IMG/VR virus record: IMGVR_UViG_3300042391_000692
Coordinates: 36,364-100,363 of that record
Source: a virus
Strand: one strand, 5' to 3'
Length of the DNA stretch: 64,000 bases
Position numbers and translations under genes: made by a program. Numbering within the stretch: the first letter of the stretch is position 1; each line of letters opens with the position of its first letter. The notes beneath the pieces are model-generated. The model saw only the letters and a list, made by a program, of their open reading frames with translations, was not told where the DNA came from and searched no databases. Shown in pieces: positions 17,064-55,847 of the stretch.

Positions 17064-17651
17064 TTAGTCCTTGATAGTGATTGTTCTTAAATCTGGATAG
17101 TTAACTTGTCGAGGTGACGGGCAGTGTTCTTTAAGTCCTTCCAGCATTGCAATACCTTGTATAGCTTCTTCTGGTGTGGGCTTGTAGTGATAGCCAACTC
17201 TAAATTCTTTTTGACTAATCCAGGGTTTGATATTTAGATCACGCCCATCATACCGCATACGAATAATTGCATCGTATGCTGCCTTGTCATCTAACAGTAT
17301 AGCACCTCCACGGCCTATATGTAAAGGCTTGTCATGCCCAAAACTCAGGCATTGTATCTGTCCCAGTCGATACATATTCTTTTCTAGCCTACGAGCACTA
17401 TCCCAGATACGTGTGCCATGAAGACGGTACTCGCCTGTCCATTCTTCCTCTTTGTAGTAATACTTGATTCCCAATTTGTGCATGGTCATAGCAATGCTCA
17501 AATATGTGTAAGGAGTCATCACAACTTCTTTCACCCGGTCATGCCGCAAACACAGCTCAATAGCATGTGTACAGCAATCGGTCATGACGGCATAAGGGGC
17601 ACCAGTAAACTCTGCCAGTGCGTCTTCAAACTGTTTGATTTTTTCGAACAT
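17064..17651 (-). CDS. Shortened DegT/DnrJ/EryC1-type aminotransferase
   Basis: 195 residues, about half the usual 370-400. The N terminus FEDALAEFTGAPYAVMTDCCTHAIELCL matches the PLP-phosphate-binding opening, PYTYLSIAMTM the next block, and SFGHDKPLHIGRGGAILLDD the Schiff-base lysine region with K123 or close by. The C-terminal domain is missing, yet the gene is intact, coupled to galE, and ends without decay. Similar short DegT proteins occur in phages; they may be non-catalytic or work as sugar-modifying minimal enzymes. Confidence 0.75.
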   Translation of the reverse strand: MFEKIKQFEDALAEFTGAPYAVMTDCCTHAIELCLRHDRVKEVVMTPYTYLSIAMTMHKLGIKYYYKEEEWTGEYRLHGTRIWDSARRLEKNMYRLGQIQCLSFGHDKPLHIGRGGAILLDDKAAYDAIIRMRYDGRDLNIKPWISQKEFRVGYHYKPTPEEAIQGIAMLEGLKEHCPSPRQVNYPDLRTITIKD

Positions 17652-18903: not shown

Positions 18904-20114
18904 TCTTCGATCTTTACAACATGATATTTAGGTTCGGCAACATGGTCACGGTAACGGTTGCCTGCGCGGTTATATTGCTCACCATTTCCAGAAATGATAT
19001 CAACAACCCGGTCAATACATCTGTTATTCCAATCACTAATGAGACCCATGTTGTGATGAGGTGCTCTAAGAAGGTTTTGTAGTTTGTGATAGGCATCGTC
19101 TATGCTCCATGGTACGTAAAGCCGATTAGGGTCATTTGCAAAAGTTTCAGGGAAACTGCGATAAGCAGGATATAGAACGTTGGCTCCGAGGGTATCTGCT
19201 TCACTGACAGTGTTTGAGACCCAATCTTGTAGAGCACAATTAAACAACACACGAGTATTGTTAAGGTGAGCATAGTATTCGTTCTTTGTGATGTTATCGT
19301 AGATTTTTAGTTTGCCTTCCGCCTCCATACGGCGGGCACGTTCAATATACTCTGGGTTATTGGATCGTAGAGGTCCGCCACTGTATATTGCAAACTCACA
19401 CGGCTCGCTGGTGAGCTCACTATACATTTCAATAAGATCCATGAAGAAGCCAGGTTGCTTTTCCTGATCAAAACGAGCCGCGAAGCCGACTCTACGGGCA
19501 CGTTGAACAAAGGGCGTGATGTTTTCCACGCCACCGATCCGCTCCAGTACTTCTGATTTGCCAAATGCAAGACCGGAAATGTTGTAAATCGGAGCAGTCC
19601 ATCCAGCAATGCGCATGTGCGCGACCATTTCCTCATTGGTTGCCAGTACTGCACCCCCCGAGAAAGCCACCATCTCATTGACCATTTGTTCATACAGTCC
19701 CATCCACTTCTGTAGACCCCACACATGCACAAAGTCATCAGGGTCAATGGCCTGTGCCAAACAACGTACATAGATACGTGGACATTGTTCACGGGGAATC
19801 TGGTTCATGATGTAACCAAGACTTTCAAAGCCCGGCTGAAACATGTCTTCAAAGTAGATCACATCTTGACTAGTTACGTCGCCGTTCTTCATCATCTGAA
19901 CCAAGTTCATCATCTGGCTCATGGCAAAGTAACTGCGGCCATGTGCGTCTAGTACTTGGCCTACCGAGATAGCTTGTGTGTTGTCAATTGTGGTGCCAGG
20001 AACATACACAACATCTAGGCCTCGACGTTCAAACACCCGTCGATTCCACTCAGTTAGCTGTAGTGTGTAACGGGCTTCGTAACTTTCCAAGCCCATGTAG
20101 TATAGTTTTCTCAT
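18900..20114 (-). CDS. GT-B-type glycosyltransferase-like protein, 404 aa
   Basis: Two Rossmann-like halves are visible: the N-terminal half with VIYFEDMFQPGFESL and the C-terminal half starting RRVGFAARFDQEKQPGFFMDL, as in GT-B retaining enzymes (GT4-like), ending with VLFNCALQDWVSNTVSEADTLGANVLYP, the typical donor-site region. I recall related proteins in marine T4-like phages. It could glucosylate DNA, as T4 alpha-/beta-glucosyltransferases do, or act on a glycan; nothing here distinguishes these. Confidence 0.65.
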   Translation of the reverse strand: MRKLYYMGLESYEARYTLQLTEWNRRVFERRGLDVVYVPGTTIDNTQAISVGQVLDAHGRSYFAMSQMMNLVQMMKNGDVTSQDVIYFEDMFQPGFESLGYIMNQIPREQCPRIYVRCLAQAIDPDDFVHVWGLQKWMGLYEQMVNEMVAFSGGAVLATNEEMVAHMRIAGWTAPIYNISGLAFGKSEVLERIGGVENITPFVQRARRVGFAARFDQEKQPGFFMDLIEMYSELTSEPCEFAIYSGGPLRSNNPEYIERARRMEAEGKLKIYDNITKNEYYAHLNNTRVLFNCALQDWVSNTVSEADTLGANVLYPAYRSFPETFANDPNRLYVPWSIDDAYHKLQNLLRAPHHNMGLISDWNNRCIDRVVDIISGNGEQYNRAGNRYRDHVAEPKYHVVKIEE

Positions 20115-49721: not shown

Positions 49722-50339
49722 TTATTGCTTTTGAATAATGGGCATGGTCTTTCTCACCGTCCCGGGCACAGCTATGTGCAACAGCATGGCGTCTTTTTCG
49801 TCATGATGATCCACAAAGAATGATCTAGTGATGTAGGACTGACGGATCAGGCGCCCTTGCCAATGTTTAGTTAGTTTAAACTGCTGGGGTCTACTGAGTA
49901 GGAATTGACTCAAAATCCTCAGTTGATCTTTGGTATAGTGTTTTTCCCGAAAGTAAGTGCGCCATTGATAACTGCTGTCTTTTAGTAGCACAACATCTCT
50001 AGGAAGATCTACCACGGCCTGTTGAAAGTAGCAGTGACTGACCCCGGGAAAACGCTGTAGGATTTCAAAAAAGCCAGGATCGTTGGTGTAAAAATACTGC
50101 CAGTCAGTGTACACCATGCGCTTGTAAGGTACTTCAATGCTGAGAATAGTGTCACACAGTTCCAGCATGGATTCTATAGGCTTGATGATTTTCTGTCGAT
50201 ACAGTGAAGCAAAAGCCACAGATTCCTGTATGGACTTGTGCGTGAGTGTTCGCATGCGCCCAGATCCTTCAAATCTAAAGCACATGGAATACTCGTACTG
50301 ATCAAAAAACAGTCTATCTTTACTGACTTGTTTATACAT
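49722..50339 (-). CDS. Hypothetical protein, 205 aa
   Basis: Start at 50339 (MYKQVSKDRLFFDQYEYSM) overlaps the Clp gene by eight bases. The N-terminal FFDQYEYSMCFRFEG and HKSIQESVAFASLY suggest an alpha/beta fold with aromatic residues, and the C-terminal third is basic (RLIRQSYITRSFF). Conserved-looking but not recognised. Confidence 0.6.
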   Translation of the reverse strand: MYKQVSKDRLFFDQYEYSMCFRFEGSGRMRTLTHKSIQESVAFASLYRQKIIKPIESMLELCDTILSIEVPYKRMVYTDWQYFYTNDPGFFEILQRFPGVSHCYFQQAVVDLPRDVVLLKDSSYQWRTYFREKHYTKDQLRILSQFLLSRPQQFKLTKHWQGRLIRQSYITRSFFVDHHDEKDAMLLHIAVPGTVRKTMPIIQKQ

Positions 50340-52596
50340 CTGGGAACCTAATAATACCATCGTCAGCTACCACGGGCACCACATGTGTGACCACGTCAAA
50401 CACCACATTGTCATCAACCAAGTTGGCAGTGATGTCACAGTCTGTCAAGCGATCAAACAGGATCCGCTTGCTCAGTGGCACACGAAGCAACTCATCAATC
50501 TTGCGACTCAAGGGTCGAGCGCCCATCTTGGGATCATAGCCCTTGTCGGCCAGCATGTCAACCACGGGCTCACTCAGGTTGAGTTGTATGTTCTTTGTGG
50601 CCAAACTGGTCTTGAGTTCGTCCACAAACTTGACCACAACTTTCTTGATGGCCAAGGTATCCAACTTGGAGAATTTGACAATTTGATCAATGCGGTTGCG
50701 CAGTTCAGGTTTAAAGAACTCCTTGACTGCTTTGTCGTCTTCGCCAGTTTTCTCAAAGCTACCAAAGCCAATGTTGTTGGCTTCACTATCACGTGCGCCC
50801 AGGTTCGACGTCATGATGATAATACAGTTCTTGCAGTTGGCTTTTTTGCCATTGGTGCTGGTCAACACACCTTCGTCCAGCATCTGTAGCAGGATGTTTG
50901 TGACATCAGGGTGTGCTTTTTCAATCTCATCAAACAAGATAATTGAAAAAGGATTCTTGGTAAGATCAGAGATTAGTTTACCACCACCCACATTGCCATC
51001 TTCAAAGCCCACGTAGCCTGGGGGAGCACCAATAAGCCCGCTGACACTATGCCGTTCTTGATACTCACTCATGTCATATTTCAGCAGTTTCATGTCCAAG
51101 TTGTTGGCCAGCAATCTAGCAAGTTCAGTTTTACCTGTGCCTGTTGGCCCTAGGAACAAGAATGACGCCATGGGTCGTGTGGCATTGGCAATGCCGGCAA
51201 AGTTGATATACACACGTTCCAGCACTGAATCCACTGCGCCATCCTGTCCATACAACTTTTGCTTGATGTTGCTTTCTAGTTCCACAATCTTGGTTGATCG
51301 TTCGTTTTGCAGTTTGTCTGCAGGAACACCTGTCACACGAGCTAACTGAGCTTCAATCAAGGCCCGAGTAATGTTTGCTGTGCCAGAGTCTTTCACACGC
51401 TCACGTGCGCAGGCCGCATCAATCAAGTCAATGCTTTTGTCAGGATTCTTTTTGTCGTGAATATATCGATTCGCCAGTTCCACCGCTGAGGTAATCGCTT
51501 CTGTTTCAATAAGAACATTGTGGAATTGCTCAAGCCTAGGTGACAATCCAATGAGGATTTGTTCTGTGGTGCCAGCATCTGGCTCATCGATCGACAAGCG
51601 ATAGAAGCGACGCATAAGTGCGCGATCTTTCTCAAATGACTCATAGTATTCTTCCCAGGTGGTTGATGCTACAACTTTTAAACTGCCCTTGGTAATAGCA
51701 GGCTTGATCATGTTGGCAAGATCCAGGCTGCTGGAACTGTTAGAGCCGGCGCCTTTCATGGTATGTGCTTCGTCAATAAACAAAATGCACTTTTTCTTTG
51801 TTTCCAGGGCCAGCATCACTGCCTTGAACTTTTCTTCAAACTCGCCGCGATACTTAGATCCGGCCAGCAAGCTACCAACTTCCAGGCTCCATACTTCATG
51901 ATCCTTCAAGAACTCAGGCACACGCCCTGCCGCAACTTCCTGTGCCAGGCCTTCCACAATGCAGGTTTTGCCCACACCAGGATCGCCTACCATGAGCACG
52001 TTGGCCTTGAATTTGCGAGCCAGCACAGTGATCATTTCTTCCAGTTCCTTGTTGCGCCCAATCATGGGCTCAAGTTGATTTTTCAGGGCCAACTTGCTGA
52101 GATTCACACAGTACTCAGTTAAAACTTCATCAGCTTGACTAGCGTTCATACGTTCCTCCAGTTTGGCCGCATAATGCTTTTGCCAAAAGTCCACAAATTC
52201 TTGTTTTTTTACACCGTACTTGAGAAAGAAGTAGTGTGCATGACTGTTGGTTTCAGCCATGAGACTCAAGTAAAGATCAATTGTGGTCATTGATCTGCGC
52301 CCAGTAAACATTACCTGTACATTGGCACGGTTGAATAGCCGTTCCAGTGTTTGTGTTTTCTTGGGATGCTGGTCCGGAGTCTTGGACACCAAGCTGGTCA
52401 GACTGTTGAGATAGTCGGTGAGTTCAGTATCAAACTGATCAACTTCTACACCAAATGCATCCAGGCATTTTCTAAACGGTGCATACCGCAAAAGAGCCAG
52501 TGTCAGATGTTCACTAGTAACATACTCATGATTGGCATGTCGAGCCAGGTTCACAGCATTTTCAATAATGTGTTCAATTTCAGGATTGTTTTGCAT
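50332..52596 (-). CDS. clpA: ClpA-type AAA+ unfoldase
   Basis: 754 residues from ATG 52596 (AAGGACTCT upstream), about the size of ClpA. A Clp N-terminal repeat region (1-150) precedes two AAA+ modules: Walker A GDPGVGKT (204-211) and B ILFIDEAH (271-278), then GPTGTGKT (483-490) and IILFDEIEK (552-560). The ClpB middle domain is absent. NNIGFGSF holds I609-G-F611, the IGF/IGL ClpP-docking loop of ClpX/ClpA, so it may recruit host ClpP. Promoter at 52623-52651. Confidence 0.9.
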   Translation of the reverse strand: MQNNPEIEHIIENAVNLARHANHEYVTSEHLTLALLRYAPFRKCLDAFGVEVDQFDTELTDYLNSLTSLVSKTPDQHPKKTQTLERLFNRANVQVMFTGRRSMTTIDLYLSLMAETNSHAHYFFLKYGVKKQEFVDFWQKHYAAKLEERMNASQADEVLTEYCVNLSKLALKNQLEPMIGRNKELEEMITVLARKFKANVLMVGDPGVGKTCIVEGLAQEVAAGRVPEFLKDHEVWSLEVGSLLAGSKYRGEFEEKFKAVMLALETKKKCILFIDEAHTMKGAGSNSSSSLDLANMIKPAITKGSLKVVASTTWEEYYESFEKDRALMRRFYRLSIDEPDAGTTEQILIGLSPRLEQFHNVLIETEAITSAVELANRYIHDKKNPDKSIDLIDAACARERVKDSGTANITRALIEAQLARVTGVPADKLQNERSTKIVELESNIKQKLYGQDGAVDSVLERVYINFAGIANATRPMASFLFLGPTGTGKTELARLLANNLDMKLLKYDMSEYQERHSVSGLIGAPPGYVGFEDGNVGGGKLISDLTKNPFSIILFDEIEKAHPDVTNILLQMLDEGVLTSTNGKKANCKNCIIIMTSNLGARDSEANNIGFGSFEKTGEDDKAVKEFFKPELRNRIDQIVKFSKLDTLAIKKVVVKFVDELKTSLATKNIQLNLSEPVVDMLADKGYDPKMGARPLSRKIDELLRVPLSKRILFDRLTDCDITANLVDDNVVFDVVTHVVPVVADDGIIRFPDV

Positions 52597-52622
52597 AGAG
52601 TCCTTGTGTAATGTCATACGCT

Positions 52623-52665: not shown

Positions 52666-53463
52666 TTATCGGTGTTGTTGAATCGCAGCCATGATGGCCG
52701 GATCCACTTGATCAGGTATTTGTGCTTGTATCTTGACAAAAAGGTCACCACGCTGTCCTGCTCGATCCAGGATGCCTTGCTGTCGCAAACGCAGAGTGGT
52801 GCCAGGTTGACAGCGTTCAGGAATGGTAACTACCAAACTGTTTCCATCCAAGGTGCGTATTTCAGCTGTGCCGCCCACAATCAAATCCCACACCACAATT
52901 TCATGTTCGGTGTAAAGATTAAGTCCTTCTCTGCGCCAACGTCGATCAGGCTGTAGTCTAAACTGTATCACAAGGTCTTGCCCACCTGGAGCAATGCCGG
53001 TGTACTGAACATTGTCTCCGTCGTTGATGCCTTGCGGTATTTCAATTTCCACAGTTTGTTGACCAGAAGCGGTGCCCAGGGCCACTGTGCGGTGACCGCC
53101 ACGTATGCAGTCCAACAAGCTGATCCACAGTGTCATGCGCACATGACTTTGTCGGGGACGCTGAGCAAAGCCCTGTCCAAAAAATGGATTGCCTCCACCG
53201 CCGCCAAACATGCCGCCAAAGATGTCATTGATGTTGACATGCACACCATCACCAAATCCCCCAAACTGTGGCTGTGGGTTGTCATAGGCCTGTCGTTTAG
53301 CTGGATCTCCCAGAGTATCGTATGCGGCTTGAATCTCTTGAAACTTTTGTGTGTTCCCACCCTTGTCCGGATGATGTTGGCTGGCCAGCTTGCGAAAAGC
53401 TCGCTTGATTTCATCTGCTGTGGCTGTTTTGGCAACACCTAATGTTGCATAGTGATCGGTCAT
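52666..53463 (-). CDS. dnaJ: DnaJ/CbpA-type co-chaperone
   Basis: 265 residues: J domain (1-65) with HHPDKGG, a glycine/phenylalanine region (PQFGGFGDGVHVNINDIFGGMFGGGGG), then the C-terminal peptide-binding domain without the CxxCxGxG zinc repeats, so CbpA-like. It activates host DnaK and delivers substrates. With the adjacent Clp gene it forms a proteostasis pair, though each has its own promoter. The start is directly after the terminator/promoter hybrid. Confidence 0.9.
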   Translation of the reverse strand: MTDHYATLGVAKTATADEIKRAFRKLASQHHPDKGGNTQKFQEIQAAYDTLGDPAKRQAYDNPQPQFGGFGDGVHVNINDIFGGMFGGGGGNPFFGQGFAQRPRQSHVRMTLWISLLDCIRGGHRTVALGTASGQQTVEIEIPQGINDGDNVQYTGIAPGGQDLVIQFRLQPDRRWRREGLNLYTEHEIVVWDLIVGGTAEIRTLDGNSLVVTIPERCQPGTTLRLRQQGILDRAGQRGDLFVKIQAQIPDQVDPAIMAAIQQHR

Positions 53464-53464
53464 G

Positions 53465-53497
53465 AAAAAGGCCCTGTATGTTTAATTATACAGGGCC
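53465..53497 (-). terminator. Rho-independent terminator overlapping a promoter
   Basis: On the minus strand GGCCCTGTAT and ATACAGGGCC form a perfect 10-bp stem with an 8-base loop, followed by TTTTT. It would end transcripts from the holin/71-aa operon. Its 5' arm contains the TATAAT of the promoter at 53485-53513. Confidence 0.75.
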
Positions 53498-53513
53498 CGG
53501 TTGCTGATGTCAA
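53485..53513 (-). promoter_or_regulatory. Consensus sigma70-type promoter TTGACA-17-TATAAT
   Basis: TTGACA (53508-53513) and TATAAT (53485-53490) with spacer 17, minus strand: a perfect consensus. The -35 starts directly after the stop codon of the 71-aa gene, and the -10 lies within the terminator stem; initiation near 53478 skips the 5' stem arm. Drives dnaJ. Confidence 0.85.
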
Positions 53514-53729
53514 TTACTTCTTTTCAGGTACCTTGGTACCTTCAAGTTTCTTGTGTTGCTTTACTTCTTTACAGCTTTGCTTGACTTTGCCGGTCTTGGT
53601 GTCTTTGACTGGTTTGCCTTCTTTATCTTTGACATCCACACAGACTTTTTTAGTTTCTTTCTTGGGCTCTTCAGCAATGACAAATTGACTACCTAGTGCC
53701 AAGGCTAGTGCGATTAATAGTTGTTTCAT
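53514..53729 (-). CDS. Small exported lysine-rich protein, 71 aa
   Basis: An N-terminal signal peptide MKQLLIALALALGSQFVIAEE with probable cleavage after AIA/EE, followed by a highly charged lysine-rich chain with two cysteines (KVCVDVKD, KQSCKEVK) that could pair in the periplasm. Placed between holin and dnaJ, after which a terminator follows. No family recognised; a lysis-regulator or periplasmic inhibitor role is possible. Confidence 0.6.
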   Translation of the reverse strand: MKQLLIALALALGSQFVIAEEPKKETKKVCVDVKDKEGKPVKDTKTGKVKQSCKEVKQHKKLEGTKVPEKK

Positions 53730-53733
53730 GATT

Positions 53734-54222
53734 TTATCTTTCTGGAAATGGTGGTATTACAGGGGCGGGTTTTCCACCAAATCCTGTAACAATCTCAGCC
53801 GCTGGCGCTCCAATTGTTGCACTGCTATTACTGCTGCCTGGTGCTGTTGGTGTTGTACCCCAACTTGGTGCTGGTGTAAAACTTGTGCTAGGTGTTGGAG
53901 ACCCGCTTGCAAATCCTGTTGCTGGTGTTTGTATTCCGCCATTGTTAGCCCCTCCTAGTTTTTCTTGTGTGCGACCATACGCCGCAATACCTAGTACTGC
54001 TCCCATGGCAATGTGGAACAAACCAGCACCTTGCAGTGTGAGTGGTTGCCACTGAGTAATAGGTTGCTTGAGCAAGGTCTGTGCCAGGCTCCATAGTATG
54101 GGAAACAGCACAAAGTCTGTTATACAGGTCAGCATATACATCCAGCCCATAGCTGGACGCCACTTTGAGTTCATCCAGTCTTCTTTTTTCTTTTCACTTT
54201 CGCTTTTGACTTCTTCTGTCAT
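53734..54222 (-). CDS. Holin-like membrane protein, 162 aa
   Basis: After an acidic start, WMNSKWRPAMGWMYMLTCITDFVLFPILW is the opening of the three-transmembrane GTA-type/phage holin family (KWRP...), then AGLFHIAMGAVLGIAAYG is another membrane segment, and a long Gly/Ser/Pro-rich cytoplasmic tail. Holins open the inner membrane for the endolysin; the GH19 endolysin and spanins lie just upstream. AAAAGGAGCC before the ATG. Confidence 0.75.
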   Translation of the reverse strand: MTEEVKSESEKKKEDWMNSKWRPAMGWMYMLTCITDFVLFPILWSLAQTLLKQPITQWQPLTLQGAGLFHIAMGAVLGIAAYGRTQEKLGGANNGGIQTPATGFASGSPTPSTSFTPAPSWGTTPTAPGSSNSSATIGAPAAEIVTGFGGKPAPVIPPFPER

Positions 54223-54963: not shown

Positions 54964-55581
54964 TTATGCTCCAAGAACGTGTAAGGCGTGCTCAGTGTGA
55001 CTGATACGATCTTCAAGACCAATGTAGCCACCATTGATGGCTCGTGTTAGACCTTTTGTATCATTAGCATCAGCAAAGCGATTCAAGTTGTTTTGTTCCC
55101 AGTACCAGCAGGCGCTTTGTGCGGCACCTTCAAATGTGGCTAGATATTCTGCGGCTTCTTCTACACTAATATCCAAGCTGCCTGCAAAGAATGTGTAGTT
55201 GTCTTTGCCTGTGAGTTGAATCAAGCCACGACCGCAATAGAGCCAGCCATCGCCTGACGCTTCGTCGCCGTTGCCCATTCTGTTAGCGTACACTCTGTTG
55301 GCAATCTTTTCCGGGCGTTTTTCGTACTGTGCAGCCAATTCATCTGTGGGGAAATACTTGGCAAATGTTTTTCTCAGGCTCGCGGCCTTGTAGTTGAGGT
55401 TTTCTTTGATGAAAACAAAATTTCCTGACTCATGAGCGCACTGTGCAATAAAATGTGCCACACGTAACGGTGTGTTGATATTGTAATCATCTAACAACTG
55501 ATCCAAGGCGCCGTGCCATTGATTAATGTAAGGGTTCTTGACCATTTGTTTTAGTTGTGATAATGTAAGTATTGAACTCAT
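54964..55581 (-). CDS. GH19 chitinase-type endolysin
   Basis: 205 residues from ATG 55581, ATGA-coupled to the spanin. HFIAQCAHESGNFVFIKENLNY contains the catalytic glutamate pair region of GH19 lysins (AHESG), followed by YANRMGNGDEASGDGWLYCGRGLIQLTGKDNY, the classic second block. Cleaves peptidoglycan glycan strands. No export signal, so it needs the holin. Confidence 0.9.
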   Translation of the reverse strand: MSSILTLSQLKQMVKNPYINQWHGALDQLLDDYNINTPLRVAHFIAQCAHESGNFVFIKENLNYKAASLRKTFAKYFPTDELAAQYEKRPEKIANRVYANRMGNGDEASGDGWLYCGRGLIQLTGKDNYTFFAGSLDISVEEAAEYLATFEGAAQSACWYWEQNNLNRFADANDTKGLTRAINGGYIGLEDRISHTEHALHVLGA

Positions 55582-55847
55582 TTGCTGGCTCCTTCGAATA
55601 TTATTTTTTGTTTTGTGTGCCACTCAATCCATGCGTCTAGTTTGACTGCGCATTCGTAGTACGAGGTGTAGTTTTCAGTAATGGTACGTGCAATAGTGCT
55701 CAAGGCCGCATCATCATTTAATTTTTTGAGATTGGGACAGGGTTGACTGACCAATTGGCCAGGTGCATCAGGAAACTTGGCCACAACAGGAACTACAGTA
55801 CTACATCCTGTCAGGCACAACAATATTGCAATAGCCCAATATTTCAT
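55578..55847 (-). CDS. Outer-membrane spanin-like lipoprotein
   Basis: 89 residues with a lipobox CLTGCS after a hydrophobic leader MKYWAIAILL, giving lipidation at Cys15. A short proline-containing stretch and helical tail follow. Size, lipobox and position beside the endolysin match the Rz1-type o-spanin that links to an inner-membrane spanin, here probably the protein at 57299-57766. Confidence 0.7.
   Translation of the reverse strand: MKYWAIAILLCLTGCSTVVPVVAKFPDAPGQLVSQPCPNLKKLNDDAALSTIARTITENYTSYYECAVKLDAWIEWHTKQKIIFEGASK

Follow-up and report, generated by a model that had tools for sequence, protein, structure and literature searches.

The gap of about 50 bases between dnaJ and the lysis genes upstream of it very probably contains a transcription terminator and a promoter superimposed on the same DNA, so that this promoter would be the sole source of dnaJ expression, irrespective of the transcription arriving from upstream. 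The element was analysed in a window of 64,000 nucleotides (the whole stretch of DNA under study). Polymerase coming from the lysis genes would transcribe both arms of the hairpin as well as U5 and would stop just before the dnaJ start codon, and a host-type sigma-70 polymerase on the same DNA would start approximately at the first base of the 3′ arm. RNA born at this promoter would be without the 5′ arm, so that the hairpin could not form and the T5 tract would be passed; this locally started RNA would encode dnaJ and probably clp. The likely function would be start-dependent insulation, in which read-through RNA is stopped and locally started RNA escapes.

All parts of the composite element are located on the minus strand (53,461-53,516) and were read directly from the sequence. 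In 5′ to 3′ direction their order is ...GAAAAGAAG, TAA, TTGACA, tcagcaacc, GGGCCCTG, TATAAT, taaac, ATACAGGGCC, TTTTT, C and ATG. The stop codon TAA of an upstream Lys-rich ORF (53516-53514) is followed by the −35 hexamer TTGACA (53508..53513) and, after a spacer of 17 bp, by the −10 hexamer TATAAT (53485..53490). The two hexamers show 12 of 12 matches to the sigma-70 consensus TTGACA/TATAAT, for which a spacing of 16-18 bp is usual. The 5′ arm of the hairpin, GGGCCCTGTAT (53488..53498), contributes GGCCCTGTAT (53497-53488) to a 10-bp stem, and the 3′ arm (53469..53479) consists of ATACAGGGCC (53479-53470) and a G-U closing pair. The T5 tract (53465..53469), which is the predicted stop point of the read-through RNA, directly follows the stable stem-loop as in intrinsic terminators and is separated by a single C from the dnaJ start codon ATG (53463-53461). 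The preliminary description had placed the complete TATAAT inside the 5′ arm; this is correct for TAT, which is paired, but not for AAT, which is part of the loop. It had also let the RNA begin in the loop, a position that had to be revised: from the −10 position, and assuming the usual discriminator of 6-7 nt, the start is predicted at about 53479-53478, on one of the first two bases of the 3′ arm. The actual sites of starting and stopping, and the efficiencies of both, are inferred.

The dnaJ promoter is the only perfect TTGACA-N15..19-TATAAT in the 64-kb window, where 0.08 were expected. The read-through segment of 34 nt has a folding energy of −18.6 kcal/mol (z −5.0; equalled by none of 200 shuffles), and for the promoter-born RNA no hairpin is predicted (−1.0 kcal/mol). 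The earlier claim of a perfect consensus promoter within a terminator was thereby confirmed. On the whole contig of 100,363 bases, the dnaJ hairpin is the top-scoring terminator of the minus strand, and the dnaJ promoter is a single instance, with no other strong promoter lying inside a terminator. Five plus-strand composite candidates at four sites of the same contig were dropped; they have weak 9/12 promoters and mostly poor hairpins. The U5 tract is short, and this, like the single occurrence on the contig, counts against the explanation. A comparison with the Rfam regulatory RNA families (riboswitch, leader, attenuator) gave two matches only, both far under the gathering score.

The genes on both sides of the element, all encoded on the minus strand, agree with the earlier assignment of a lysis/holin operon upstream of dnaJ, with a holin, a GH19/chitinase-type endolysin and Rz-like spanins. 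The dnaJ gene (52666..53463) encodes a protein of 265 aa with a J domain and a DnaJ C-terminal domain and is followed downstream by a gene for a ClpA/ClpB-type AAA+ unfoldase (50332..52617). Upstream, the Lys-rich ORF of 71 aa (53514..53729) has a signal-peptide-like N terminus, and no family match was found for it; the holin (53734..54222), the endolysin (54964..55623) and an Rz-like spanin lipoprotein (55578..55847) are encoded further upstream. From general knowledge of phages, the lysis operon would be transcribed late and dnaJ early.

In order to obtain relatives irrespective of their regulatory DNA, phage dnaJ loci were gathered by protein similarity alone, which resulted in 119 distinct upstream regions; a promoter was recognisable in 111 of these. 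In 62 of the 111 (class I) RNAfold predicted a hairpin that straddles the −10 and ends in a T-run, as compared to 1.45 expected from shuffling of spacer and leader; shuffles of the spacer alone reached the observed hairpin stability in 1 of 1240 trials. When the T-run was ignored, a significant inverted repeat around the −10 was present in 61 of the 111 regions (1.1 expected), and at least 5 T within the next 7 bases were found after 56 of these 61 repeats. The class I relatives have −35 and −10 hexamers near consensus and a 17-bp spacer. A Lys-rich ORF of a similar kind ends just 5′ of the element in 60 of the 62 class I loci; its association with the hairpin classes is strong (Fisher p about 4e-17) and confounded by phylogeny. 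For this reason, and because several hairpin-less loci also follow the holin gene, the association was not taken as proof of insulation.

Two further layouts were found at the same boundary. In class II (8 dnaJ loci, 0.56 expected) the hairpin is formed around the −35 and the T-run lies within the spacer, as in AAGGCAG-TTGACTA-CTGCCTT-TTTTT-attg-TATACT-ttatct-ATG (L329). In class III (the four leaderless loci L012, L013, L019 and L322) there is no T-run and the dnaJ start codon lies within the 3′ arm, an arrangement also known from T4 gene e. The distance from the −10 to the ATG cleanly separates the first two classes, with 17-43 bases in class I and 6-7 in class II. About 37 of the 111 regions showed no hairpin in these tests, which indicates that the terminator is not indispensable; these loci are mostly leaderless, with the ATG 5-9 bases past the −10. 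Leaderless mRNA is predicted from a gap of only 5-8 bases between −10 and ATG for L325, L348, L391, L395, L408, L412 and about 20 more loci. Five loci with leaderless dnaJ promoters (L402, L348, L391, L393 and L412) have an inverted repeat inside the −35/−10 spacer (e.g. GCATACAATTTGTATGC), possibly an operator. Since an internal AUG without a Shine-Dalgarno (SD) motif is poorly used, the leaderless hairpin-less loci may reach the same end as the hairpin classes. Judged from their sequences, all layouts would share one outcome, namely that no RNA other than that begun at the dnaJ promoter leads to dnaJ expression. The presence of at least three layouts at one boundary (terminator at the −10, terminator at the −35, start codon in the hairpin) points to real selection for a DnaJ made exclusively from its own promoter in these phages.

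Covariation was analysed in 41 distinct class I elements. Standard pairs accounted for 92.9% of the stem pair cells, compared to 81.0 ± 1.0 after shuffling, and 44 cells were changed on both sides, compared to 10.1 ± 2.5 expected; such double changes were present at 7 of the 10 stem pairs. The covariation score was 0.379 as opposed to 0.166 for shuffled data, none of 500 shuffles reached it, and the signal was destroyed when the partner was slid by 1-3 columns. Thus, the claim that read-through RNA stops and local RNA escapes gains support from the anatomy, from the compensatory stem changes and from the T-run after 56 of 61 repeats, and the function itself would follow from these. The double-duty design appears to have been kept by evolution while its letters changed. 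A tree built from 110 DnaJ sequences required 13 changes for the four layout labels, with at least 4 changes for class II and at least 3 for class III on well-supported branches. Since each change could be either a gain or a loss, and since recombination of regulatory DNA is possible, it is only claimed that the layouts would have been repeatedly exchanged, and not how often they originated.

The placement of the hairpin relative to the upstream gene also fits a terminator. A ribosome represses terminators located a few bases past a stop codon, and a terminator is believed to need 10-15 nt of free RNA (PMC4824070). Among the class I loci where it could be measured, 60 of 61 had a distance of 13-21 nt from stop codon to hairpin, a spacing that would agree with the room needed by a terminator behind a translated gene. 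The −35 hexamer and one half of the spacer fit into exactly this obligatory gap, so that the superposition would add little DNA. The dnaJ element resembles intrinsic (Rho-independent) terminators in its stable stem, its short loop, its U-tract and its location 13-21 nt past the stop codon, but differs from them in that the DNA of the stem doubles as the consensus promoter of the next gene.

Among the alternatives, a translational switch of the type known from T4 gene e survives best, although it is an unlikely account of the element as a whole. In this case the hairpin would hide the RBS or start codon of dnaJ in the read-through RNA, and transcription would not be stopped. The geometry is that of T4 e, soc, 49 and I-TevI and of Aeh1 mobE, where the 5′ strand of the hairpin contains a promoter and the hairpin covers the translation start in read-through RNA (PMC3014915, PMC2988022). 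As in T4 e and I-TevI, the DNA of the hairpin's 5′ strand includes the dnaJ promoter, local RNA would be made without that strand, and read-through RNA would form the hairpin without expressing the gene. In addition, the 3′ arm of the window hairpin contains a weak SD-like AGGG, and in the four class III loci the start codon is part of the 3′ arm. However, the T4 hairpins mask SD and AUG and their promoters are late, whereas the dnaJ element has a T-run after its hairpin and a sigma-70 consensus promoter with a −35, not a late (gp55-type) one. In the window, as in nearly all class I loci, the hairpin does not include the dnaJ ATG, and a hairpin around the −35, as in class II, cannot mask a start codon located past the −10. 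Any of five SD-like motifs tested was present in 19 of the 62 class I leaders and none in 43, unlike in the SD/AUG-masking hairpins of T4. With 43 of 62 leaders being without such a motif and the T-run being kept, a purely translational role is less likely for class I; since some 3′ arms do carry SD-like motifs, translational masking could contribute. The T4 precedent for a promoter in a hairpin is one of translation, and a terminator serving as the hairpin would be a new variation.

An operator, with a repressor or another DNA-binding protein acting on the inverted repeat around the −10 to control dnaJ and the T-run being incidental, is a very improbable explanation. For an operator, a palindrome over the −10 is in a classic position, and one lineage of class I loci with a near-frozen GGTATAG stem (e.g. 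L035, L045, L302) has a pairwise arm identity of 0.88 as opposed to 0.33 in the adjacent spacer, at a mean DnaJ identity of 56%. This stem is more conserved than pairing requires, and the frozen letters would need something besides pairing, perhaps a bound protein by which the palindrome may be recognised as well. In the lineage of the window, by contrast, the arm drifts (identity of 0.42, near the 0.32 of the spacer) while pairing is kept and the −10 is invariant, which makes a pure operator role unlikely there; pairing would explain the drifting arms. Furthermore, the class II stems are largely unrelated in sequence, and stem and T-run occur together. The consensus of the CIRCE/HrcA heat-shock operator is a repeat of the type TTAGCACTC-N9-GAGTGCTAA; the dnaJ repeat, GGGCCCTGTAT..ATACAGGGCC(U), is unlike it and variable among the relatives. 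Least credible of all is that one half only works, as a terminator with a promoter-like AT-rich upper stem or a promoter with a chance hairpin: AT-rich hairpins commonly have TATA-like loops and 8 of 100 shuffled versions of the window contained a perfect consensus promoter, but 62 of 111 protein-selected relatives have both halves conserved together, the stem-less loci retain the promoter, and the −35 has an identity of 0.93-0.95 beside a spacer at about 0.32.

The superimposed promoter and terminator were also found at other gene boundaries of the relatives. The pattern TTGAC-N16..20-TATAAT-N8..24-TTTTT matched in the contigs of 20 of 25 relatives and gave no match in the reversed control, with not all matches being hairpins; as pattern-selected loci are biased to the element, they were used for breadth and never for statistics. 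True stems were located 5′ of a gene for a 79-aa protein starting with MEHPL (G012, G013), 5′ of a gene with a match to a family of phage transcription regulators (L053, L059, L079), behind a phasin-like gene (G008, G013) and elsewhere in G007, G016 and G017, and these stems differ in sequence from the dnaJ stem. The MEHPL gene occurs in both forms, with a leaderless promoter in G001 and G008 and with a promoter in a terminator in G012 and G013. Among 131 near-perfect promoters of six genomes, two of which share the dnaJ region of the window, 9 were inside a terminator and 8 came after a terminator with its T-run at the −35. This second fused layout, in which the T-run ends at or a few bases before the next TTGAC, was seen at G008:42530, 74955 and 120329, at G007:205667 and 91817, and at G001:8190 and 18511.

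Two more promoters on the contig of the window but outside the window itself, at 19098 and 17186 on the minus strand of L051 (G000:C1), have strong inverted repeats around the −10 with 13 pairs each and are without a proper T-run; at 17186 the 3′ arm carries an SD-like GGAG and resembles translational masking of the T4 type. In Ruminococcus and Bacillota contigs (L420, L424, L432, L433) a 12/12 promoter has its −10 in TATAGTATAATTAAACTATA followed by a T-run, and on this evidence bacterial genomes may hold a similar superposition.

Two relatives with long contigs encode a T4-type portal and the Gp23 capsid protein, which places these uncultivated phages in the T4 supergroup; the contig of the window itself is only a fragment and does not contain these genes. 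The Gp23 capsid match at G012:C1:193317-194306 has one in-frame TAA, which could be due to an insertion, to the boundary of an intron or to faulty assembly. A distant DNA search of cultured phages gave endolysin matches only, and the best DnaJ of a cultured phage had 36% identity across the full length. Agrobacterium phage Atu_ph07 and Sinorhizobium phage Phosso were rejected as carriers, since their dnaJ nearly or fully abuts the preceding gene and leaves no space for the element.

In phage vB_SauM-515A1 the early promoter p98 follows immediately after the terminator t97 (PMC7698491). The dnaJ element likewise ends one unit and begins the next in a short space; p98 and t97, however, stand in series, whereas in the dnaJ element both functions are on the same bases and the terminator would be invisible to locally started RNA. 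RNA polymerase has been described to recycle and reinitiate after intrinsic termination in vitro on separate transcription units (PMC6978380, PMC11347151), and the closeness of terminator and promoter at dnaJ could likewise let a stopped polymerase restart nearby; in the available text of these reports a superimposed element is not described. A hand-off, in which the terminated polymerase stays at U5 with the promoter under or beside its footprint, picks up sigma again and begins a new transcript at dnaJ, is conceivable at a low probability. If true, the terminator would be a transcription relay, with the traffic of the lysis operon feeding dnaJ and the lysis RNA kept out. No precedent for a promoter superimposed on a terminator stem was found in a literature search that covered few subscription papers, and priority is not established.

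Annotation that treats promoters and terminators as mutually exclusive will miss such sites. The element could be used as a part in synthetic biology and offers a natural test bed for polymerase recycling. For the phages themselves, it would provide a compact and evolvable separation of two transcription programmes in about 50 bases, in which the birthplace of an RNA decides whether it is stopped.
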